35,026 bases of DNA, from NCBI GenBank assembly GCA_002753465.1, contig PEAF01000015.1:1-35026 (forward strand), written 5' to 3'. The stretch comes from Candidatus Omnitrophota bacterium. GTDB lineage: Bacteria > Omnitrophota > Gorgyraeia > Zapsychrales > Fredricksoniimonadaceae. The notes under the pieces were generated by a model. The model saw only the letters and a program-made list of their open reading frames with translations, ran no database searches and was not told the origin of the DNA. Positions within the stretch are counted from its first letter, which is position 1, and each line of letters opens with the position of its first letter. The translations under genes and the position numbers were made by a program. Below, one piece after another: positions 5,128 through 18,334 of this stretch.

Positions 5128-6873
5128 ATGAGCGAAGAAATAGTGAACAAGCCGTCGGATTTTATCCGTGACATCGTCACGGCCCACGTTGTGGAAAAGA
5201 AGTATCCCGGCATCGTGACGCGATTTCCGCCGGAGCCCAACGGCTATCTTCATATCGGACATGCTAAATCAATCTGCCTTAATTTCGGCATAGCCCTTGA
5301 GAATGGTGGCCGCTGCAATTTGCGCATGGATGATACGAACCCCGCTAAGGAAGACGTTGAGTATGTTGATTCCATTACGACTGACGTGAAATGGCTCATT
5401 GGCGGCTGGGCTGATCATGTGCTAGGGCTAAAGCCGGACGGCACGCCTTATTTTGCCAGCGATTATTTTCAGGCCATTTATGATTTTGCCGAGACATTGA
5501 TCAAAAAGGGCAAGGCTTATGTCTGTGACCTCAGTGCTGATGATATGGAAAAATTCCGTGGCGTGCCGGAAAGGCCCGGTACGGAAAGCCCTTTCCGCAA
5601 TCGTTCGGTCGATGAGAACCTTGATCTTTTCCGCCGCATGAAGGCGGGGGATTTTCCTGACGGAACCAGGACGCTGCGTGTCCGGATCGATATGACTTCG
5701 CCGAACATGTGGCTGCGGGATCCCATTATTTATCGCATCCGTCATACGGCGCATCATCAGTCCGGCAATGCCTGGTGCATTTATCCCATGTATGACTTTG
5801 CGCATTGCCTGAGTGATTATCTGGAGGGTATTACCCACAGCATCTGCACGCTGGAATTCGAGGTGCACCGTCCGCTGTACGACTGGATCCTTGAGGCGCT
5901 GGAGCTTCCACGGTATTTGCCGCATCAGTATGAATTCGCCAGGCTTAACGTGACGCATACTGTCATGAGCAAAAGAAAATTATTGGAGCTTGTAGAGAAA
6001 AAGCTGGTGAACGGCTGGGATGATCCCCGTATGCCCACCGTTTCTGGCATGCGCCGCCGCGGTTATCCGGCGTCATCCCTGCGGGAATTCAGCCGCCGTA
6101 TCGGCGTCGGCAAGGTTGAGAACATGATCGATCTTTCCCTTCTAGAATTTTGCGTGCGTGAAGATTTAAATAAAACGGCGCTGCGCGTGATGGCTGTTTT
6201 AAAACCGTTGAAAGTTGTTATTGATAATTATCCCGATGGGCACACGGATGAACTTGATGCTGTTAACAATCCTGAGGACCTTTCAGCCGGCACACGCAAG
6301 GTCCCCTTCAGCAGGGTGATCTACATTGAGCAGGATGATTTTCGTGAAGAGCCCCCCAAGGAGTTTTTCCGGTTGGCGCCTGGTCGCGAGGTGCGCCTGC
6401 GTTATGCCTATCTGGTGACTTGTACCGGATTGGTCAAGGATCCTGTAACGGGAGCGGTCACAGAGCTGCATTGCACGTATGATCCGGCCACGCGCGGCGG
6501 CAATACGCCTGACGGGCGTAAGGTGAAATCGACCATTCACTGGGTTAGTGCCGCCCATGCGGTCGATGTCGAGGTCAGCCTGTACGACCGCCTGTTCACA
6601 TGCGAGGACCCGGGGCGCATTGAAGAAGGGAAAGATTTTAAGGAATTCCTGAATCAAGGCTCATTGACTGTGTTGTCTGCCGTTAAGGCTGAACCGGTCC
6701 TGGAGCATGTCAAGGCGGGTGACGTGTATCAGTTCGAACGCCTGGGATATTTTTGTGTCGATCCTTCAAGCACTTCTGATAAAAAGAAGTTCAACAGGAC
6801 CGTTACGCTCAGGGATGACTGGGCCAAGATCGAGAAGAAGGGTGCGGGTGCTCAAAAGCCTAAGCGCGGATGA
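5128..6873 (+). CDS. glnS: Glutaminyl-tRNA synthetase
   Basis: A 581-residue class I synthetase of the GlnRS/eukaryote-type GluRS branch that charges tRNA-Gln in the cytoplasm. The ATP-site motif is [13 protein letters not shown] (HIGH at 42-45), followed by the GlnRS-type [11 protein letters not shown]. The KMSKS equivalent is V-M-S-K-R-K at 279-284, and G-W-D-D-P-R-M-P-T follows. The C-terminal half carries the anticodon-binding beta-barrels. The length is close to the E. coli enzyme (about 554). An in-frame ATG at 5101 lies inside the palindromic repeat; ATG 5128 is preferred because AGGAAGGA (5115-5122) precedes it by five bases. The presence of GlnRS implies direct glutaminylation rather than reliance only on GatCAB. 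Confidence 0.97.
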
Positions 6874-6898
6874 CAACCGGATATTTTGCGTGTATACT
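6870..6898 (+). promoter_or_regulatory. Putative sigma70 promoter of the hxs-like operon
   Basis: ATGACA at 6870-6875 (5 of 6 matches to TTGACA) and TATACT at 6893-6898 (5 of 6 to TATAAT) are separated by 17 bases. The -35 box overlaps the glnS stop codon (6871-6873). Transcription would start near 6905 and leave a leader of about 30 bases with GAGGT (6921-6925) eight bases before ATG 6934. This supports the small operon having its own promoter separate from glnS. Confidence 0.6.
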
Positions 6899-6933: not shown

Positions 6934-7347
6934 ATGAAGAGTAAATTTGTAAAAGCTGACGGTTGGGTCAAGGTTGTTGTGCAGACCAAGGTCTATGCCT
7001 TGCAGGCGGTTTATTCCGCCGGTTACGTGATGATGGATAAGGCGTATTTTTATCTGGATATGGACAGTAAGGACAAGGTCGCTGTCTGGTTAAAGCCCAA
7101 AGGCAAGGCTGACCTTGATCAATTGGCCATGGATTTTTGCCAGGAGCTTTTGAATTATGCGCATTATTTTGCCAGCCTTAAGGTCAATGCCGAAAGCATG
7201 AAGCTTTTGCTGCAACGCGCCCTTTTCTCAGCCGCTCCGTCGTTGGTCAAGGAGGCTGAAGAGAAAGAAATACAGGATCTGATCAAGGAACTTGAGATGG
7301 AAGAGGAGAAAGAAAACAAAAAGCCCGCGAAGAAGGGCAAAAAATGA
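6934..7347 (+). CDS. hxsD: HxsD-like protein of a His-Xaa-Ser-type radical SAM system
   Basis: A 137-residue soluble protein. Residues about 12-100 fit the small HxsD family: a beta strand followed by Y-A-L-Q-A-V-Y-S-A-G-Y-V-M-M-D, two further strands (V-A-V-W-L-K-P-K), then helices with E-L-L-N-Y-A-H-Y at 71-78 and L-L-L-Q-R-A-L at 91-97. From memory the HxsD signature contains LLNDYxLRE, which aligns with the E-L-L-N segment. HxsD accompanies the HxsB/HxsC radical SAM enzymes and may help present the peptide substrate; its function is unproven. Residues about 105-137 are an added charged tail, first acidic and then Lys-rich. It starts the operon, and its stop overlaps the next gene (ATGA). 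The next-but-one gene is an HxsB homologue, which strengthens the call. Confidence 0.72.
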   Translation: MKSKFVKADGWVKVVVQTKVYALQAVYSAGYVMMDKAYFYLDMDSKDKVAVWLKPKGKADLDQLAMDFCQELLNYAHYFASLKVNAESMKLLLQRALFSAAPSLVKEAEEKEIQDLIKELEMEEEKENKKPAKKGKK

Positions 7348-7571
7348 GCACGCCTTTTATAAGGAAAGAAAAAGGTGGTTTTTTGATCAATTTGCATCAG
7401 GCCCTTTACCCGGGCAGTGCTGTTGATGCTTTTCAGAAAACCGATCCGCATGTGGTCGTTGGACGAAAAGGCGCTTATTGGTCTTTGAGGTTTTCCGGAT
7501 CAGACGCCATACGGCCCCTTGAGGCATTAGACCAGCTTTTGTTTTTGTCCAAAGGACACAGATCAAAATAA
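7344..7571 (+). CDS. Small protein of unknown family in the hxs-like operon, possibly a second diverged HxsD-like chain
   Basis: I do not recognise this 75-residue protein. It is basic at both ends, and its core reads F-L-I-N-L-H-Q-A-L-Y-P-G-S-A-V-D-A-F, then H-V-V-V-G-R-K-G-A-Y-W-S-L-R-F, then a helix P-L-E-A-L-D-Q-L-L-F-L-S-K. The strand, 'Y-x3-A-V' helix, strand, strand order resembles the first half of the HxsD-like protein encoded just upstream, so it could be a shortened paralogue or another substrate-recognition subunit. It overlaps the HxsD-like gene by 4 bases and ends 18 bases before the maturase start, so co-translation is likely. It has no signal peptide or membrane segment. It lacks the His-Xaa-Ser pattern of the peptide gene, so I do not think it is a precursor. 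Confidence 0.65.
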   Translation: MSTPFIRKEKGGFLINLHQALYPGSAVDAFQKTDPHVVVGRKGAYWSLRFSGSDAIRPLEALDQLLFLSKGHRSK

Positions 7572-7589
7572 ATTTTTCGGAGTTTGAAT

Positions 7590-8987
7590 ATGGCGCGCAT
7601 TAACGAACATGTGATCCTGCCGTTCAATTCGGCTAAGGTCCGTGATAAATATGTCGTAAGCAATATGATGGGCGCCTGGGATGTTCTTGAGCCGTCAGAA
7701 TTTCGCGCATTAAGCACCATGGTCATTGATCCGAAAAGCGTTTTAGGCCAGCGCCTTCAAAAACACGGTGTCGTTGTGGATCAGGAGAATCTTCAGTCAG
7801 TTATACAGGACTATAAGAATTTAAATGCTAATTTGTTCTCGGATGCCGGCTTGCATATTGCGGTTGTAACTACGAAGTGCAATCTGCGTTGCCGTTATTG
7901 CCAGGCAAATCCACCTGACGGCGTTGATATGACCCTTGATGTTGCGGCTAAGGTCCTGAACAACCTTTTTGCCGTGCGCAACGTTAACGTGAGCCTTGAG
8001 TTTCAGGGAGGCGAGCCTTTGATGAACTGGCCGGTGGTCAAGTTCATGATCGAGAATGCCCGTAAATTCAATACGACGGGAAAGTCTCTCAGGATTTCCC
8101 TGGTGAGCAATTTGTTGCTTCTGGATGATGCGAAGATGAAGGTTTTGGCGGATAATGGCGTGGATGTGTGCACGTCTTTTGACGGGCCCCAAGAGATCCA
8201 TGACGCGAACAGGGTCTATGAAGGCGGCCGTGGGACATATGATGAATTGATCGCGAAGATCAGCAGGTTTAAGAAGAAATTTGGGCGTGATGTTAGTTTC
8301 TTATCGACGATTACAAAAGCGTCATTGGCGCATCCTGAAAAGATCATCGATGCGTATGTTCAACACGGTCAGCACGAGATCTGTTTAAGGCCGGTCAATA
8401 ATATGGGGGCGGCTTGCGGTACATGGAAGGACGTCGGGTATACGCCTGAACAGTTCTGCGCGTTTTATGCCAAGGCGGTGGATTATATCCTGGAGTTGAA
8501 TCAGCGCGGCGTACGGTTCAGGGAGCGCAGCGCGCGGGTGATCCTGACTAAGGTGCTGGGCAAAAGAGATCCGGGTTATGTTGATCTGATGAATCCGTGC
8601 GGTGCCGGGAGGGCCACGGTATCGTACATGCCCGATGGTGATTGTTATCCGTGCGATGAGGCGCGCATGCAGGGTGACCTGTTTAAACTTGGCAATATTT
8701 TAAGTGAAACGTATGAAGACATGGTTAAGAAAGACAACCTTCTTCATTTACTGCAGGCTTCTTGTATGAACCTGTGGAATGCCGGTTCGGTCTACAGTCC
8801 GTGGATCGGTTGTTGCCCAGTTGTGAACTATGCGCTGCAGGGCAATGTTATTCCGAAATTACACTGTTCGTCCGTGCACAAGGTTACGGCGTTCCAGTTC
8901 GCGTATGTTTTTGATAAGATCGTTGAACAGGGGCCGTCATTGGAAACTTTTAATCAATGGGTAGCGGGAGACAGCCATGAAGAATAA
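7590..8987 (+). CDS. hxsB: HxsB-like radical SAM/SPASM peptide maturase
   Basis: A 465-residue radical SAM enzyme predicted to modify the peptide encoded directly downstream. The N-terminal about 80 residues (V-I-L-P-F ... D-V-L-E-P-S-E-F-R-A-L) match the HxsB lead-in. The SAM cluster motif is C97-x3-C101-x2-C104 (C-N-L-R-C-R-Y-C), and Q-G-G-E-P is at 139-143. The segment Y-I-L-E-L-N-Q-R-G-V-R-F-R-E is strongly HxsB-like, as is C337-G-A-G ... C352-Y-P-C355-D-E-A-R. In the final segment V-Y-S-P-W-I-G-C-C-P-V-V-N-Y-A-L-Q-G, positions 400 and 406, usually Cys in the family, are Ser and Ile, while C392, C408, C409 and C426 remain. The frame opens at TTG 7584; ATG 7590 is preferred, with CGGAG at 7578-7582. 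No HxsC partner lies beside it. Confidence 0.87.
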   Translation: MARINEHVILPFNSAKVRDKYVVSNMMGAWDVLEPSEFRALSTMVIDPKSVLGQRLQKHGVVVDQENLQSVIQDYKNLNANLFSDAGLHIAVVTTKCNLRCRYCQANPPDGVDMTLDVAAKVLNNLFAVRNVNVSLEFQGGEPLMNWPVVKFMIENARKFNTTGKSLRISLVSNLLLLDDAKMKVLADNGVDVCTSFDGPQEIHDANRVYEGGRGTYDELIAKISRFKKKFGRDVSFLSTITKASLAHPEKIIDAYVQHGQHEICLRPVNNMGAACGTWKDVGYTPEQFCAFYAKAVDYILELNQRGVRFRERSARVILTKVLGKRDPGYVDLMNPCGAGRATVSYMPDGDCYPCDEARMQGDLFKLGNILSETYEDMVKKDNLLHLLQASCMNLWNAGSVYSPWIGCCPVVNYALQGNVIPKLHCSSVHKVTAFQFAYVFDKIVEQGPSLETFNQWVAGDSHEE

Positions 8988-9285
8988 GAAGAAGGTTTTG
9001 TCAAAGATCACTGACTTTAAAAAGACCCTAAGGGATTTTGTGGCAGATGAAGATGGTTATGTCAGTAAAGAAACAATGCTTAAGGTGGGCCTGTCGACGG
9101 TCGCCGGCATCGGTATCTTGGGCGCTGTATCGGATACCTTCGCCAAGAATGACCATACTAATGTGACAAGCCATACCAATTCCATGACGTTCTCTACCGG
9201 CGCCGGACCCGGCGGCTGCCTTGTCCCTGAGGATGCGACACACTCCAATGTCGCGCCGTCGCACGCATCACATACCAGTTATTGA
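8977..9285 (+). CDS. Candidate ribosomally made precursor: Flp/type IV prepilin-like peptide with a His-Xaa-Ser/Asn tail
   Basis: A 102-residue protein encoded last in the operon, overlapping the maturase gene by 11 bases, with GGGAG (8966-8970) six bases before ATG. Residues 1-27 are a basic leader ending V-A-D-E-D-G. Gly27 is followed by Y-V-S-K-E, which puts Glu at +5 as in type IV/Flp prepilins, and residues 33-52 are hydrophobic. The exposed tail (53-102) holds all five histidines: H60-T-N, H66-T-N, H89-S-N, H96-A-S and H99-T-S, so each has Ser or Asn two residues later. It has one Cys, C81, in G-P-G-G-C. Adjacent HxsB/HxsD homologues suggest post-translational modification of the tail. 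An A24 peptidase is encoded about 4 kb downstream. A plain hypothetical pilin is the alternative. Confidence 0.78.
   Translation: MKNKKKVLSKITDFKKTLRDFVADEDGYVSKETMLKVGLSTVAGIGILGAVSDTFAKNDHTNVTSHTNSMTFSTGAGPGGCLVPEDATHSNVAPSHASHTSY
9055..9072 (+). other. Predicted prepilin-peptidase cleavage motif in the precursor
   Basis: Codons for G27-Y28-V29-S30-K31-E32. The rule for A24 peptidases is cleavage after Gly, with Glu at position +5 of the mature protein, followed by a hydrophobic helix; all three elements are present. Cleavage between 9057 and 9058 would release a 27-residue basic leader and leave a 75-residue membrane-anchored product. Hydrophobic residues are interrupted only by K36. Confidence 0.6.
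9154..9279 (+). repeat. His-Xaa-Ser/Asn motif region of the precursor tail
   Basis: This stretch encodes five triplets His-(Thr/Ser/Ala)-(Asn/Ser) at residues 60, 66, 89, 96 and 99, in two groups separated by a Gly/Pro-rich loop with the sole Cys. No His lies outside these triplets. The DNA is not an exact repeat, so the pattern is kept at protein level. Confidence 0.75.
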
Positions 9286-9337
9286 GGCGAGCGCTTGCAG
9301 ACTTATTACGCAGCAGCATCTGTTGTCAGTTTATTTT

Positions 9338-9374
9338 ATAAAGAGGCTCCTGTTTTAGGAGCCTCTTTATTTTT
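9338..9374 (+). terminator. Intrinsic terminator after the precursor gene
   Basis: A perfect 13-bp stem (9338-9350 pairs with 9358-9370) encloses a 7-base loop (TGTTTTA); the core is AAAGAGGCTCC with GGAGCCTCTTT. A short T run (9371-9374) follows. It lies 53 bases after the precursor stop and 18 bases before the next start. The A-rich left flank means it could also work on the other strand. Bases 9286-9337 hold nothing else I can identify. Confidence 0.88.
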
Positions 9375-9392
9375 ACAGGACAGGAGTCTTGA

Positions 9393-11015
9393 ATGTTGAG
9401 ATTTGACTGGAAAAGTATAGCCGGCGGCCTTTTCGTTCTGATGTTCAGCATCGGTGTAACGTTTTATTGCCAGCAGGATGCGCTCAAGGACCGTTATTGT
9501 GTTCAGGATGACGTGATGCAGTATTTGCCCGCATTTGCTCAATATGAAGGAGCGAGGCCTCCGGAGAATGACCTTATGGCGCGTTATTCCTGGACATGGA
9601 ATACCATCGGCTCAAGGTATCTTTATGCGACGGCATCAAGGGTTATGGACCCCCTTCTTTTATCAAAGGTCCTGCCGTTCATATTATGTCCGTTGACCGC
9701 GCTCTTGTGTTATTTGTGCGCGGTATATTTCTGCTCGCGGTGGGTGGGTGTTCTTGCCGCTGTTTTAGTAGTTCTTCATGCCTGGAGCATTTATGCTTTC
9801 TCAGGAGGCCATCCGCGCGCCTTTGCATTCCCGTTGTTGGCCGGGTTCCTTTATTTCATGTTAAGGCGAAAATTATGGCTGGCGCTGATTTTGATTGTCA
9901 TCGCGGGCGTTTTTTATCCTCAGATCGCCTTAATCGGTGCCGCTGCACTGGCGGCATGTTATGCGGATCGTATTTCAGAACACTACCGTACTGATGGCTT
10001 GGTAAGGAAATGGGCGCCTTTCATGGCGGTATTGATCACAGTTGCTGTTGGCGGGTGCATCATTGTCCACATGCCTGTTGACCCGTTTCTGGGCAAGATC
10101 GTTTCCTGGGGGCAAATGCGCGGGATGCCTGAATTCAGCGGTGATGGCCGGACGCCATTTTTTATCAGTGACTGGGTAAGATTGATGCGCAGTGCGGCAT
10201 GGGCAGAGCGGATCTGGGGTATGAATTGGCAAACGCATGCCGGGGTTGTTTTGACAGGATGTGGGATCTTAGGGCTTTATTTGGCAGGCCGTCGTGTGAT
10301 TCGTTTTGATCCTGTTCTGTATTGGATATTAACCAGTGCATTGGTTTGGGGCGTACTGGCTTGTTTTCTTATGATGCATTTATTCTTTCCAGGCAGGTTC
10401 TTAAAGTTTGCGTTGCCGCTTGTGTTATCTTTTAGCGCGGCGGCGGCCATCGTCTGGGTGACCGATTTCGGCGGACAGCAACGCAGAAATGTGTTAAGGG
10501 CTTTGGTTGTGGCCGGGATCTGCCTTTGGGCGCTTCCGACCCTGCGCCCTGATTTAACGTGCTATGACAAGCAGGATGTTTACGCTGGGTTGAGGAAATT
10601 GCCTGCCGACGCGATGATCGCCGGGCATCCGGCTGTAATGAATGAGATTTCTGTATTTACAGGCAGGAAGGTCTTTTTGTCGCAGGAGTTGTCATTGCCT
10701 TTTTATCAGTCTTATTATGCCCAGGTCAGTTTCAGGACCAGGGAGTTCTTCAGAATGTATTATGCCGTGGATGTAGGGGATTTTAAGGCAATATGCCGAC
10801 GCAATAATATCCGGTATGTTTTGGTTAAGGAGCAGCATTTTACACCAGCATATTTAAACGAGGGTAGATTTTACCTGGCCCCCTACAATGAATTCGTTCA
10901 CACGTTGGTTTTAGCACATGAGGCGCATGATTTTGTACTTTCATCGGTGAACCCGGCAGCTTTGATGATGGGTGGCGGGGCCGGATATTTTATCGTTGAT
11001 GTATTGAAGATGTAA
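9393..11015 (+). CDS. Polytopic membrane protein with GT-C-like architecture
   Basis: A 540-residue protein. One hydrophobic segment lies at residues 9-25, then a loop with D39-D40 (Y-C-V-Q-D-D-V-M-Q-Y-L-P), about ten further membrane segments to about residue 380, and a soluble C-terminal domain that includes A-G-H-P-A and R-Y-V-L-V-K-E. This layout, with an acidic pair in the first periplasmic loop and a C-terminal globular domain, is that of GT-C glycosyltransferases using polyprenyl-linked sugars, although sequence motifs are weak. AGGAG (9382-9386) lies six bases before ATG 9393. The gene sits directly after the terminator of the peptide operon, so it needs read-through or an unseen promoter. 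It could glycosylate an exported protein or glycan; the acceptor is unknown. Confidence 0.62.
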   Translation: MLRFDWKSIAGGLFVLMFSIGVTFYCQQDALKDRYCVQDDVMQYLPAFAQYEGARPPENDLMARYSWTWNTIGSRYLYATASRVMDPLLLSKVLPFILCPLTALLCYLCAVYFCSRWVGVLAAVLVVLHAWSIYAFSGGHPRAFAFPLLAGFLYFMLRRKLWLALILIVIAGVFYPQIALIGAAALAACYADRISEHYRTDGLVRKWAPFMAVLITVAVGGCIIVHMPVDPFLGKIVSWGQMRGMPEFSGDGRTPFFISDWVRLMRSAAWAERIWGMNWQTHAGVVLTGCGILGLYLAGRRVIRFDPVLYWILTSALVWGVLACFLMMHLFFPGRFLKFALPLVLSFSAAAAIVWVTDFGGQQRRNVLRALVVAGICLWALPTLRPDLTCYDKQDVYAGLRKLPADAMIAGHPAVMNEISVFTGRKVFLSQELSLPFYQSYYAQVSFRTREFFRMYYAVDVGDFKAICRRNNIRYVLVKEQHFTPAYLNEGRFYLAPYNEFVHTLVLAHEAHDFVLSSVNPAALMMGGGAGYFIVDVLKM

Positions 11016-11039
11016 TATTTTATCGTAGAAAGAGGGCTT

Positions 11040-12059
11040 ATGCGCGTTGTAGAGCGGCGGAAAGGGGGTGGGCGCAGTTGGGCCCTGTCATGTTTTCCTA
11101 TACACCGGGTGCGCTTGTGCGCCTCCAGCATGTGCCAGCTAAAATGCCCTGCCTGCGCCAAGGGGGCTGGCGGTAATCATAAAAGCGTGATTGGCTGGGG
11201 TTTTCTTAAGGCTTCGGACTTTGAGAGATTTCTGAAAAGACATGGAAACGTGAGGGGCGTTGAACTGTCGCATAGCGGTGAGATATTTCTTAATCCGGAA
11301 TTGAAGGATATTTTAAGGTGTGCCCTTGTTGCCCGCGTGGCTTTGACGGCTAAGGGGGGGGTTAACCTGAATGATGTTCCTGCTGATTTATGTGAGGCCC
11401 TGGTCCGGTATCGACTGCGCGCCATGTCTGTTTCTATCGATGGTGTGGATCAGGTCACTTATGCGAAGTACCGGTGTGGCGGGGATATCGGGAAAGTGCT
11501 TGATAATATTGAACGTATTAATTTCTATAAAAAGAAATATGCATCGCCGTATCCTGTCTTGCAATGGCAGTTCATTTTATTCGGACACAATGAGCATCAG
11601 GTGTGTCAGGCTCGACGCATGGCTACTGAAATGAGGATGAATTTTGCTGTTATGCTGAATGCGTCTGATACGTATTCGCCTGTTAAGAACAAGGTGAAGG
11701 CTTATGAAGACGCTGGCATTAAGTATATTTCGCGTCAGGATTTCATGTCAGGGCGGGACCAGGCCTATGTTTTGCCCTGTTATCAGCTTTGGGATTCGCC
11801 GCAAATAAACTGGGATGGGCAGTTGTTAGGATGTTGTAAAAATGTTTATAAGGCGCTCGGGAATGTTTTTGAAGAAGATTTGGAGCAGCTTTTGAGGCGA
11901 TCGGCCTATGTGGGCATGAAAAGGTCGGTTTTAGGGTATTCAGCCAGGAATTCAGGCAATACGCCCTGTTTCAAGTGTTCAATCTTTTTAAAGAATGATC
12001 GTGATATTAGGTTAAGGACGCTTGTTCCTTCACTGATAAGAGCGGATTTCGCACATTAG
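11040..12059 (+). CDS. Radical SAM/SPASM-type protein
   Basis: A 339-residue protein with the radical SAM cluster motif C32-x3-C36-x2-C39 (M-C-Q-L-K-C-P-A-C-A-K-G) after a short basic N-terminus. The strand segment S-V-S-I-D-G-V-D is a common feature of the barrel. The C-terminal part holds L-P-C-Y-Q-L-W ... I-N-W-D-G-Q-L-L-G-C-C-K-N and later P-C-F-K-C, consistent with a SPASM or twitch auxiliary-cluster domain. Such enzymes act on peptides, proteins or sugars. It follows the membrane protein by 24 bases with AGAGGG before ATG. Its stop overlaps the convergent glycosyltransferase stop by 4 bases. It is clearly different from the HxsB-like enzyme and shows no HxsC-specific feature that I recognise, so its substrate is open. 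Confidence 0.82.
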   Translation: MRVVERRKGGGRSWALSCFPIHRVRLCASSMCQLKCPACAKGAGGNHKSVIGWGFLKASDFERFLKRHGNVRGVELSHSGEIFLNPELKDILRCALVARVALTAKGGVNLNDVPADLCEALVRYRLRAMSVSIDGVDQVTYAKYRCGGDIGKVLDNIERINFYKKKYASPYPVLQWQFILFGHNEHQVCQARRMATEMRMNFAVMLNASDTYSPVKNKVKAYEDAGIKYISRQDFMSGRDQAYVLPCYQLWDSPQINWDGQLLGCCKNVYKALGNVFEEDLEQLLRRSAYVGMKRSVLGYSARNSGNTPCFKCSIFLKNDRDIRLRTLVPSLIRADFAH

Positions 12060-13270
12060 ATCTTTTGCTGGACCAGTCGGGCCATGGTGCGCGCGCCATT
12101 GAACCAGCCGGCAGGTGCCACTGGTGGTGTTATTCCCCGGGAGTGGATCTTCTTGATGGTGGCGGCCAGAAGCTGTGCGGATAGTTTGTCATACGGGATT
12201 ATGGTGGCGTTAAAACGTTCTTGCAGCAGACGGGCACGGGCCAGTTGATCTGTGGTGGCATCTTTTGAGGTTGGGTTCTGCCAGGGAATGATGATGGCGG
12301 GTTTTTGCGCCTGCATTAATTGCACGGATGTGTTGTAACCGCAAAGACTGATGGAAATGTCGCTGTCTTTCAAGAGCTTCATAAGATCGGCGGTCGATTT
12401 AAGCAGCAGCGTATTTTGAGCCTTGGTTTTTTTGATGTGTTGTTTGAAGAAGGTTATTTCTGTCGCAGACGTGGCGGGTCCGCAAACAGCTATCAGTCTA
12501 TATTTGTTGCCGAGGATAGCTTGTGCGCTGATGGCATTGGCAATCAGTTTTGGATTTACCGCGCCACTGCCACGGCTTAAGAGAACGGTGCATATTCCTT
12601 TGGGGCGCTTTATTGGATCGGCATGAGAAGGTTCTAATATTTTATGGGGTACGATATAGCCGGTGTAAGAAGTTTTGGCGGCAATGCTCTCAAGGAAGGT
12701 TTTATAGAAGGCGCGTTGTTTGTCTGTTGTTAGGCAGGCGTGAACGTATGGGTTTTCCAGAAGGGGCGGGGTGTGGATGAAGATGTGGTCAAACAGCTGG
12801 GACACGGATGGCAGCAGTTTTATAAGGCGGTCTTCTTTGTGTCGGATTAAATCGGATAGCAGCGGGTAGCCTATACTGGCAAAGATCCTGGTTTTGGATG
12901 TTTTTAGAAAATGCAGCGACGGCAGCAGCTCGGGCAGGCATTCAAGTCGTCCGAAGGGGAAGAATTCCGTGATGAATGCGGTAGGCCGGACTTCTTTGAT
13001 AATATTAAGGATGAATCCGGCCCTTTCCCGTGCGTGCACCGTGGCGCGCGGGCCATTAAAGCTGATTTTTGAGTCGAATGGGTAGGGAATGTGGTAAATT
13101 TTCGCCTTTGCGGGAAAGATGATAAAATTCTGCGGAACGCCTCCTTGCAGGATGTATACTTCACAGGGGATGGTCTTTGTGAGGGCGTTGACCAGAGATG
13201 TGAGGCGTGTGGCATGCCCGAGCGTTTCTTTGTGGGTGAAGTGAAAGAGAAATTTATGTTTCGGGTGCAT
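12056..13270 (-). CDS. Glycosyltransferase, GT-B/GT28-like (COG4671-type)
   Basis: A 404-residue protein with the glycine-rich N-terminal loop T-L-G-H-A-T-R (residues 16-22) that follows the first strand in MurG-like and COG4671-like GT-B enzymes. The C-terminal nucleotide-binding half contains L-L-S-R-G-S-G-A-V-N and then I-S-L-C-G-Y-N-T-S-V-Q-L-M-Q-A-Q-K-P-A-I-I-I-P-W, the usual donor-binding region. It is predicted to be cytoplasmic or peripheral on the inner membrane and to use a nucleotide sugar. It is the only glycan gene of this stretch on the minus strand, convergent with the preceding radical SAM gene (4-base overlap) and divergent from the prepilin peptidase, with a gap of about 40 bases. 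I see no clear ribosome binding site. Confidence 0.82.
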   Translation of the reverse strand: MHPKHKFLFHFTHKETLGHATRLTSLVNALTKTIPCEVYILQGGVPQNFIIFPAKAKIYHIPYPFDSKISFNGPRATVHARERAGFILNIIKEVRPTAFITEFFPFGRLECLPELLPSLHFLKTSKTRIFASIGYPLLSDLIRHKEDRLIKLLPSVSQLFDHIFIHTPPLLENPYVHACLTTDKQRAFYKTFLESIAAKTSYTGYIVPHKILEPSHADPIKRPKGICTVLLSRGSGAVNPKLIANAISAQAILGNKYRLIAVCGPATSATEITFFKQHIKKTKAQNTLLLKSTADLMKLLKDSDISISLCGYNTSVQLMQAQKPAIIIPWQNPTSKDATTDQLARARLLQERFNATIIPYDKLSAQLLAATIKKIHSRGITPPVAPAGWFNGARTMARLVQQKI

Positions 13271-13310
13271 GGTTTCAACTTTAACATATTTCTTTACGCA
13301 GTTTGATAAA

Positions 13311-14183
13311 ATGATCTATAAAGTATCAGCCATATTGATAATTATAACGGGCTTTGTTACGAGCTATACTGATCTTAAAGAAAGAAAGATCAGGAATCGC
13401 CATATCGCTATTTTGCTTTGTATGGGGGTTGCCCTTCAGTCAGCGGCGGTTATTTTGCGACAGGTCGGTCTGTATGCCCTGCTGCTCAACGGGTTGCTGG
13501 CAGGCGTGATCGCGTGGGTTCTTTTCAGGCGCGGGTTCTGGAGGGGCGGGGATGCAAAGCTTTTCTTTATCTATGCCTGTTTTATGATACCGGTGGCCGG
13601 CAGTGGCGGCGACTCTTATCCGGCGCTGATACTTTTCGTGAATGCATTTATAAGTGGTTTGGTGTTTCTTTTTCTTAGGGCGGTCCGGACATTGCCGGAT
13701 GTGCGGCTCCGGCTGGCAGAAAAGGATTTTCGTGATGATCTTTGGCGTCAGATAGCGATGGCGGTGGCGGCATCCTGGTGCCTCCCGTCGTTGTTTCACG
13801 TGCTGCCTCTGCCGAAGATACCATTATTGACGATGGCTGTTTATATCTTGCTGGTTGCTGTATGGGCCAGGGCTTCAGGGCAAGTAAGGAAAGAGGTCCT
13901 ATTAATGGCCTGCTTGCTGTGCTTCGGGTTCATTTTTAGAGTGTTCTTGAAAGATGATGTGCTTTCTTTGGGTTATTGGGTTAGGGTGGCGTTTCAGATG
14001 TTAAAATATGCCACCGTGTTCTTTTTGATCCAGCATGTTTTTCAGGAAGCGCGTAAGGGCTCGACACGTATACCTTTTGCACCCTTTTTATTTTTCGGTT
14101 GTGTTTTAAGCTATCTTCATTTTTGGCCTGAGGCTGCGAAATATATTGGGGTTCTGAAGATTTGGCCTTTGTCGGGATCCTAG
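13311..14183 (+). CDS. A24-family prepilin peptidase-like membrane protease with C-terminal extension
   Basis: A 290-residue polytopic membrane protein. The two catalytic aspartates of the A24 family are visible: D21 in T-D-L-K-E-R-K-I-R-N at the end of the first membrane helix, and D81 in G-G-D-A-K-L-F, the usual GxGD site. TadV/CpaA-type members are about 150-170 residues and lack the N-terminal methylase domain, as here. This one continues with further hydrophobic helices and ends with R253-I-P-F-A-P-F, which resembles the family's last helix (I-P-F-G-P-F-L), so an insertion may separate the parts. I chose ATG 13311 over ATG 13269, but neither has a clear ribosome binding site. A type IV/Flp-like precursor in the same locus is the obvious candidate substrate; I see no pilus ATPase gene nearby. 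Confidence 0.8.
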   Translation: MIYKVSAILIIITGFVTSYTDLKERKIRNRHIAILLCMGVALQSAAVILRQVGLYALLLNGLLAGVIAWVLFRRGFWRGGDAKLFFIYACFMIPVAGSGGDSYPALILFVNAFISGLVFLFLRAVRTLPDVRLRLAEKDFRDDLWRQIAMAVAASWCLPSLFHVLPLPKIPLLTMAVYILLVAVWARASGQVRKEVLLMACLLCFGFIFRVFLKDDVLSLGYWVRVAFQMLKYATVFFLIQHVFQEARKGSTRIPFAPFLFFGCVLSYLHFWPEAAKYIGVLKIWPLSGS

Positions 14184-16661: not shown

Positions 16662-17393
16662 ATGTTGAGCAAGCCGCTGGTTTTTCTTAGGGATGATGAC
16701 GTATGGCGGCTGGATGCCTCTTTTAAGAGGTTTTTTTCATTAGCCCTGGAATTGCGGATCCCTGTTGTTTATGGCGTGGTCCCCGGCTGCCTTACGCGCG
16801 GTGCACAAAAGTTCCTCGTGGAACGCGTCAGGCGGACGCCTGAACTGGTGGATCTTGTTCAGCACGGCTGGAGGCATCATAATTACGCACTGCCGGGTGA
16901 GCGGAAATATGAATTTGGTGCTTGCCGGGATTCGGCGGCGCAGCGCTCTGATCTGCGTGCCGGGCGGAGAAAAATGCGCGCCTGTTTCGGTCCATATGCC
17001 ACCGACGCCTTTGTACCGCCGTACCATAGTTTTAATGGGGACACGCTGGATATTCTTGAAGATGAGGGGTTTTCTATATTCTCGGCCGAGCGCGAGCTTC
17101 GGCCCAAAGGGCGGCTATTTTTAGATCTTCCGGCAAATGTTGCCTTGAAAACGTTGGATGACGGGGTAATCATGGCCCTTGATGCCGGGAGCATGATCCG
17201 CAGGACGCTCCATTCTATTGCCCATCGAAAGGTGACGGGCCTTGTCCTTCATCACAATCTCTATGTGTCTTCACAAGGGAGGCGGGATCTGGAGATCTTT
17301 CTAAGGTTCCTGGTCAACGCCCGCAAGAACGGGCAGATTCAAATTAAACTTTTCTCGGAACTCTTAAACATGGCGGGGTCATGCGAGAAATAA
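16662..17393 (+). CDS. Polysaccharide deacetylase (NodB-like) family protein
   Basis: A 243-residue protein of the carbohydrate esterase 4 superfamily. The N-terminal strand ends in F-L-R-D-D-D (aspartates 11-13), the position of the catalytic/metal aspartates, and V-Q-H-G-W-R-H-H-N-Y gives H68, H72 and H73, the metal-ligand region. A later F-V-P-P-Y-H matches the family's motif 3 region, and L-V-L-H-H-N-L lies near the end. Such enzymes remove N- or O-acetyl groups from polysaccharides. There is no signal peptide, so it may act on intracellular glycan intermediates. GAGAG precedes ATG 16662. Its 3' end overlaps the convergent radical SAM gene by 55 bases. It fits the nearby glycosyltransferase genes. 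Confidence 0.78.
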   Translation: MLSKPLVFLRDDDVWRLDASFKRFFSLALELRIPVVYGVVPGCLTRGAQKFLVERVRRTPELVDLVQHGWRHHNYALPGERKYEFGACRDSAAQRSDLRAGRRKMRACFGPYATDAFVPPYHSFNGDTLDILEDEGFSIFSAERELRPKGRLFLDLPANVALKTLDDGVIMALDAGSMIRRTLHSIAHRKVTGLVLHHNLYVSSQGRRDLEIFLRFLVNARKNGQIQIKLFSELLNMAGSCEK

Positions 17394-18334
17394 GTCCCCG
17401 CTGAGCGATTGGCGGCGACACGGCTTCCGCCGCAGCAATCTTTCAAATCTTCACAGCATTGGCAGTCTACCGGTAAGTAGGCGGTCTCATTAAGTTTCTT
17501 TAAAAAGGGATGGCGCCAGGCTTTTGCCAGGTCTGTCCCGAGGTTTTCGTGGATGAAATAGCTTGGTTTAAAGAATCCTCGTGCATCGTATATCAGGCGC
17601 GTGTGTCCGTCATCAGCGCGCCCGCCGGCAAAAACAAGTCGTGCCGTTTTGCGGCTTGTTAGGATGCAAAAAGGAATGGCATTGCCTATAACGGCGCGCA
17701 GCCTTTTCTTGTGTAATCGCAGAAGCGCCAGGGCCAGTTTCTGATATGTATTCGCGGGGATGGTCTGAGCGGTTTTCGGCGCTGTCATCGGGCGGAACAG
17801 TTCCCATGCGTCAGGCTTGACCTTTTCGATCAGGGAAGCGTATCGGGTGAAGTTGTCGGTAAGTGCAGGCGTTATCACAGTGCCCAGGCGCAGGACAGGC
17901 ACGTAAGATTTGAGCAGGAAAACATTATTGATCTTTTCTTCGAAGTTCCCGGGAGACGCGGTAAGTTTTTGTGTTGATGCCTGATTGTATCCTTGCAGGG
18001 ATATAAGCACGTTGTTGACAGTCTGCCCGATGATACGCGCCTGTTCTTTGGTTATGACAGTTGCGTTAGTATTTAAAAGTGTGTAAAGATGATTTTTCTT
18101 GCTGTAAGCAAGGATGTCTGTCAGGTGTGGCACCAGCAGTGGTTCACCGCCAGTAATGCGGATTGCTTTCACGCCGAGGTCTTTAGCGTGGTCGATGATA
18201 TTCTTAATTCTTGTCAGGGGAAGATGTTCAAGGCGCCGTCCTGTCTGCGTGCAGTAGGTGCAGTGCATATTGCATTGACCGGTGATCTCAATGACGATCT
18301 CTGACGGGGTATTTTGTCGGGCTATTGAGATCAT
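17339..18334 (-). CDS. Radical SAM protein with Cys-rich C-terminus
   Basis: A 331-residue radical SAM enzyme: C21-x3-C25-x2-C28 (C-N-M-H-C-T-Y-C), then I-R-I-T-G-G-E-P-L-L, the SAM-binding GGEP motif, and V-L-I-S-L-Q-G-Y as a later barrel strand. The C-terminus has C-Q-C-C-E-D-L-K-D-C-C-G-G-S-R, a SPASM-like arrangement for auxiliary iron-sulfur clusters. It is transcribed towards the NodB-like gene and their coding regions overlap by 55 bases at the 3' ends. No ribosome binding site is obvious upstream, and bases 18335-18438 form the divergent gap to the CNNM/CBS gene. It might belong to the peptide/glycan locus, but its strand means separate regulation. Confidence 0.85.
   Translation of the reverse strand: MISIARQNTPSEIVIEITGQCNMHCTYCTQTGRRLEHLPLTRIKNIIDHAKDLGVKAIRITGGEPLLVPHLTDILAYSKKNHLYTLLNTNATVITKEQARIIGQTVNNVLISLQGYNQASTQKLTASPGNFEEKINNVFLLKSYVPVLRLGTVITPALTDNFTRYASLIEKVKPDAWELFRPMTAPKTAQTIPANTYQKLALALLRLHKKRLRAVIGNAIPFCILTSRKTARLVFAGGRADDGHTRLIYDARGFFKPSYFIHENLGTDLAKAWRHPFLKKLNETAYLPVDCQCCEDLKDCCGGSRVAANRSAGTYFSHDPAMFKSSEKSLI

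Follow-up and report, generated by a model that had tools for sequence, protein, structure and literature searches.

Can a peptidase of the type that processes prepilins serve as the leader peptidase of a peptide modified by a radical SAM enzyme? This question is raised by a stretch of 35,026 nucleotides from a Candidatus Omnitrophota bacterium (assembly GCA_002753465.1, contig PEAF01000015.1, positions 1 to 35,026; hereafter the window), which is one entire contig (C126) of an incomplete metagenome-assembled genome (2.18 Mb, 64% complete). At 6934-9285 (+) it carries a four-gene Hxs operon in which the open reading frames (ORFs) overlap or sit close together: hxsD, for an HxsD-like accessory protein of 137 aa (6934-7347); a small HxsD-like partner of 75 aa (7344-7571, overlapping hxsD by 4 bp); hxsB, for a radical SAM/SPASM peptide maturase of 465 aa (7590-8987); and a gene for an HxsA3-type precursor of 102 aa (8977-9285, with an 11-bp overlap with the end of hxsB). 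On the same strand, as a separate unit 4 kb downstream, lies the gene for an A24 (prepilin-type) aspartyl peptidase of 290 aa (13311-14183). A sequence-only reading had placed both the operon and the peptidase, with its two catalytic Asp, at these positions, and the ORFs and family matches bear it out. We lean slightly toward the view that this is a variant Hxs system in which a dedicated A24 peptidase, lacking the methylase domain, removes the leader by cleaving after a conserved Gly.

The hxsD-hxsB-precursor order is found again in many genomes, with hxsD homologues immediately 5' of hxsB, and the operon is therefore not a chance arrangement. HxsB matches TIGR03978 at 370.7 bits, passing the curated cut-off of 370 by a very small margin (residues 9-458 against model positions 1-466), and its closest solved relative is the radical SAM domain protein 5wgg. 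HxsD is more divergent, scoring 32.6 bits against TIGR03976 (E 7.7e-8; curated cut-off 50). AlphaFold predicts with confidence a small alpha/beta fold for its residues ~10-80 (pLDDT ~90 over residues 11-80), and a comparison of this model with the PDB gave nothing significant (best E 0.016, to Rpb11-like RNA polymerase alpha/beta shapes). The partner by itself had no significant family match and a profile comparison with HxsD gave no signal; 10 of its 13 aligned homologues, as a family, match HxsD_rel NF038315 (best 3.8e-19). The precursor scores 27.2 bits against the HxsA3 model NF038309 (E 2.4e-6; curated cut-off 65), which all 14 of the first-aligned precursor homologues also match (best 1.1e-11); none of 193 sampled Omnitrophota genomes reaches the HxsA3 cut-off.

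Judged by these matches, the Hxs part of the window is related, at some distance, to known families. It shares with the described Hxs system (TIGR03976/TIGR03978/TIGR03977; HxsA2, HxsA3) the HxsD-HxsB-precursor set, a His-Xaa-Ser-rich precursor C-terminus, alignment to the HxsA3 model and, in some relatives, an HxsC4-like gene, located between the partner gene and hxsB in L038 and L089. It differs in the extra HxsD-like partner, in the linked A24 gene, in that most members score below the curated cut-offs and in having no HxsC in the window operon, which places it outside the usual HxsA-D definition. The sequence-only reading had spoken of a possible new system. As far as the peptide is concerned this does not stand, the precursor being, by its family match, a divergent relative of the already named NCBIfam family HxsA3, which that reading did not recognise, rather than of an unknown kind. 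What survives as apparently new is the pairing with the peptidase; no paper linking prepilin peptidases to Hxs or radical SAM peptides came up in the literature searched.

The window A24 protein matches PF01478 at 34.9 bits (cut-off 26.5). This was the only domain matched, beginning at residue 9, and an N-terminal methylase domain of the PilD type is lacking; methylase-less A24 prepilin peptidases are known. The catalytic Asp codons are those of D21 (13371-13373 (+), in TDLKERKIRN) and D81 (13551-13553 (+), in FWRGGDAKLFF). Because both Asp, an Asn and a WxxGDxK motif are invariant in 25/25 Omnitrophota members of the subfamily, these proteins are likely active peptidases. They resemble PilD, TadV/CpaA and FlaK/PibD in their two catalytic Asp, GD motif and membrane helices, and their candidate substrate shares Gly/Ala at -1, but they are set apart by a WxxGDxK(L/F) signature, a C-terminal hydrophobic extension and linkage to hxs instead of pilus genes. 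A generic second A24 of these genomes sits away from the hxs loci. A PDB sequence search with the window protein returned no match, and the AlphaFold model of A24 alone was not usable (pLDDT 54).

Is the peptidase truly associated with the Hxs genes? When the window A24 was searched in 37 relatives it was present in 11 genomes, 10 of them with a full or partial HxsB. Across the 193 Omnitrophota genomes HxsA3 was found in 20 and the A24 subfamily in 18 (a count that leaves out very long or short ORFs), with both present in 15 (Fisher 1.4e-15). Among the three genomes that appeared to have A24 only, two have HxsB at contig ends (G003, G189) and one has just a weak match (G153); among the five with HxsA3 only, three (G014, G025, G073) carry A24 in the locus by hidden Markov model search. 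The subfamily gene lies less than 10 kb (0.9-9.6 kb) from hxsB or hxsA3 in 18/30 Omnitrophota loci, where ~2% would be expected per locus, and several of the other loci are at contig ends or have A24 10-30 kb off. In Elusimicrobiota a full-length subfamily member with the catalytic motifs was found in 6/12 loci. Five conventional hxs loci on plasmids (from proteobacteria, cyanobacteria and a bacteroidete), by contrast, show no annotated A24. The co-occurrence that the sequence-only reading had proposed looking for in related genomes is thus present in two phyla.

Trees of A24 and HxsB built from 19 loci give a mirror-tree correlation of r=0.85 that was reached in 0/5000 permutations. The class I loci (classes of precursor, described below) of G014 (family f1) and G144 (f20) cluster in either tree with those of class I from other families, and the class II locus of G205 (f15) clusters with class II. 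Where class and species disagree A24 follows the Hxs class, which is not expected from species relationships alone. A24 and HxsB are co-inherited, and the combination first noticed in the window is a real association. Joint transfer of linked genes would give the same tree pattern; the agreement speaks for a functional unit without proving one. We consider it quite probable that A24 is functionally part of the Hxs system.

In the window the leader of the precursor runs through G27 (8977-9057 (+)), with the putative cut after codon 9055-9057 (ADEDG/YVSKE, the slash marking the cut). Positions 9058-9132 (+) hold the remainder of a conserved leader block (+1 to +11, including Lys+9 and Gly+11) and, after it, a hydrophobic segment (~+11 to +25); the His-Xaa-Ser/Asn core, the presumed modification region, follows (9148-9282 (+)). 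In a set of 42 precursors drawn from both Omnitrophota and Elusimicrobiota, the block is conserved on both sides of the Gly: F(-7) in 37/42, E(-3) in 42/42, G(-1) in 41/42 (Ala once), Lys/Arg at +9 in 37/42 and Gly/Ala at +11 in 42/42. The leader-table anchor of L160 was placed on an upstream NG; the true motif there is SEEG/KMVDSD, in which the Gly is also present. Two classes of precursor can be distinguished by eye. In class II, to which the window precursor belongs, D-E-[DSEAN]-G mostly precedes [FY]VSKE and the usual C-terminal end is SY; class I members show SEEG-KIxKK or KMLDxD, frequently with GGWC or GQW at the end. Tandem duplicated precursors were also seen (L088:8087-9439, L041:8012-8882, L094:9485-10234).

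Prepilin leaders end in Gly or, as the sole alternative, Ala (PMC10191384, a review of type 4 filaments), and the Gly or Ala that ends the leader in 42/42 precursors therefore matches prepilin peptidase specificity and the class III signal described there. The second feature of such signals, a run of 20-25 mainly hydrophobic residues directly after the cut, is not found; in the window it is interrupted by Lys+4, Glu+5 and Lys+9. The window precursor had been called pilin-like at its N-terminus, on account of G27, Glu at +5 (E32) and the hydrophobic helix ahead of its His-Xaa-Ser/Asn-rich tail. Of this the near-invariant Gly stands across the family, but Glu at +5, which is frequent in class III signals without being obligatory, is present in 18/42 precursors, the window included (class I has K/N/S/A there), the hydrophobic stretch is broken by Lys, and none of the Pfam pilin models, Flp_Fap included, matched any of 14 precursor homologues at E<=5. 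The wording should be weakened to a leader that ends in a near-invariant Gly ahead of a hydrophobic segment. Class II precursors do share with Flp/Tad prepilins the acidic residues and Gly before the cut and the Glu at +5, and differ from them in the Lys of the following segment, the His-Xaa-Ser tail and the missing Flp_Fap match; the Flp pilins native to these genomes have another, short signal (KG/QNLIEY). A likeness of the class III signal to Flp leaders of the Caulobacter type was not counted in favor of the pilin reading.

Taking these observations together, a plausible scenario is as follows. HxsD, the small partner and HxsB (with an HxsC4-like enzyme in some relatives) would recognise the leader block F-x3-E-x-G-...-K-x-[GA] and would modify the His-Xaa-Ser/Asn tail of the precursor in the cytosol. 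Sec would then insert the precursor into the membrane by way of its hydrophobic segment, and on the cytoplasmic face the dedicated A24 peptidase would cleave behind the conserved Gly, releasing the peptide from its leader and from the maturase while the modified tail stays outside. Modification, cleavage, the cleavage site, the order of these steps and export of the precursor are all things that we infer, and for cleavage after the Gly in particular we put the chances at about even. Slightly below that we would place the wider proposal of a new maturation route, present in two phyla or more, in which a radical-SAM-modified His-Xaa-Ser peptide loses its leader to a dedicated A24 peptidase that co-evolves with the maturase and, in class II, the modified tail is anchored in the membrane or displayed in a pilin-like manner.

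Several observations weigh against cleavage by A24, and many of them would be accommodated if the Hxs peptide were exported by Sec in the ordinary way and cut by signal peptidase I, with the DEDG block serving solely for recognition by HxsB/HxsD and A24 processing other proteins of the island, for example Flp-like Cys-rich proteins or pili. We regard this account as unlikely overall, but it has the following in its favor: (i) the segment after the Gly, in which Lys is conserved at +4 and at +9, is hydrophilic (mean hydropathy over +1 to +10 of 0.0 in the window precursor and 0.11 across the family), the hydrophobic stretch starting ~10 residues past the Gly (~+11) rather than at +1; (ii) the conserved block straddles the proposed cut (E-3 to Lys+9, Gly+11), which would be expected of a motif that the maturase recognises; (iii) 21/42 precursors have an Ala-x-Ala-like site ahead of the His-Xaa-Ser region, against 14.3 +/- 2.6 in shuffles; (iv) in proteobacteria and cyanobacteria the conventional HxsA2 proteins start with a plain signal-peptide-like stretch and lack the EEG block; and (v) Flp-like Cys-rich proteins, which A24 could serve, adjoin hxs operons in five loci (L046:8863-10692 (+), L004:1141-3012 (-), L048:8761-9201 (-), L050:8909-9349 (-) and L086:3480-4400 (+)). 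Signal peptidase I could do the cutting, and since the Ala-x-Ala-like sites exceed those in shuffles, a second or alternative cut is possible. Also against cleavage by A24, Glu5 is missing from more than half of the precursors, no A24 turned up close to hxs in half of the Elusimicrobiota loci or in G002, G020 and G090, and linked genes may travel together without acting together.

Against cleavage by signal peptidase I alone stand the exact fit of Gly/Ala at -1 to A24 specificity, the fact that A24 tracks the Hxs class in the trees, and the scarcity near hxs loci of pilin-type sequences other than the precursor: no other pilin-like gene was found in the window or in most A24-linked loci, further ones being confined to L084 and L098. 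Of the candidate substrates visible in the loci, it is the HxsA3 precursor that recurs, which makes it the more probable A24 substrate. The Flp-like N-termini (e.g. G/QTATEY, A/QSMTEL and S/QTLIEF), fused to Cys-rich segments, are possible alternative substrates.

It could also be supposed that the precursor is a genuine type IV-like pilin, its modified tail shown on a filament that type II secretion/type 4 pilus machinery assembles. Class II precursors have G-1, E+5 and Phe/Tyr at +1, the genome has many T2SSE ATPases, and in G013 and G021 hxsD is preceded, on the same strand, by genes for two T2SSE ATPases and T2SSF. Yet this ATPase neighborhood is limited to one genus, save for one T2SSE-like ORF in L046, and the Lys at +4 and +9, the lack of Glu5 in class I, the missing pilin family match and the different signals of native Flp pilins make the idea improbable. 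The neighborhood itself, which also includes MshEN-domain proteins, extends over L045:10500-17434 and L044:3-9633.

That A24 is an unrelated passenger beside an ordinary Hxs operon, in a radical SAM and glycan island in which a glycosyltransferase and other radical SAM genes recur as well and in which the window A24 lies past the operon terminator, we think equally improbable in view of its linkage in several families and two phyla, the co-occurrence and the mirror trees.

The surroundings of the two units in the window can be summarized briefly. A sigma-70-like promoter candidate lies 5' of hxsD (6870-6898 (+), 10/12 matches); such matches are overall not above shuffled expectation, and its position alone is suggestive. 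An intrinsic terminator (9338-9370 (+); -22.5 kcal/mol, z -5.6, then a T run) ends the hxs operon, and because it and three genes intervene, the A24 gene is outside that operon. The three genes encode a membrane protein, a radical SAM protein and, on the opposite strand, a MurG-like glycosyltransferase (12056-13270 (-), PF04101, family GT404) that recurs in many A24/hxs loci. Beyond A24 are pda243, encoding a protein of 243 aa that is polysaccharide-deacetylase-like by eye rather than by a family-library match and has 13 homologues in the loci (16662-17393 (+)), and a radical SAM gene of family f8 (17339-18334 (-)). In relatives the f8 gene often directly adjoins A24 (L038, L045, L086, L088, L089, L093, L094). 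It begins beside the end of A24 or overlaps it in L089:6160-8336, L088:5200-7390 and L094:6766-8804, and the two are a possible functional pair.

Other genes recur around the operon in relatives. Many of them encode, just 5' of hxsD, a secreted protein in which the motif ITTYYPSPYGxY is strongly conserved, the window being without one (L084:7164-7679, L085:5810-6355, L091:6354-6860, L092:6272-6985, L093:5625-6836, L096:7276-7788). Class I loci have, between hxsB and the precursor, a gene for a Cys-rich secreted protein of 220-260 aa with no family match (L084:9718-10443, L085:8412-9137, L092:8915-9694, L087:13265-13933). A suspected ABC exporter 5' of class I loci was ruled out, the genes being AmmeMemoRadiSam, DsbD-like, RNA methyltransferase and MiaB-like. 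Further afield, a divergent hxsB (24% identity) is present on 316 Klebsiella plasmid records, e.g. NZ_CP054265.1:64811-66181, and most of the matching plasmids are predicted to be conjugative.

Neither the function nor the chemistry of Hxs systems appears to have been characterised in the literature searched, and a review of proteases in the modified-peptide field does not mention A24 enzymes (PMC10885120). Should the reading that we favor hold, A24 enzymes, which are known from pilins and filaments related to them, would act as leader peptidases for modified peptides as well. A co-inherited peptidase, together with a near-invariant candidate cut site, offers a direct handle on the identity of the mature peptide and on its destination.

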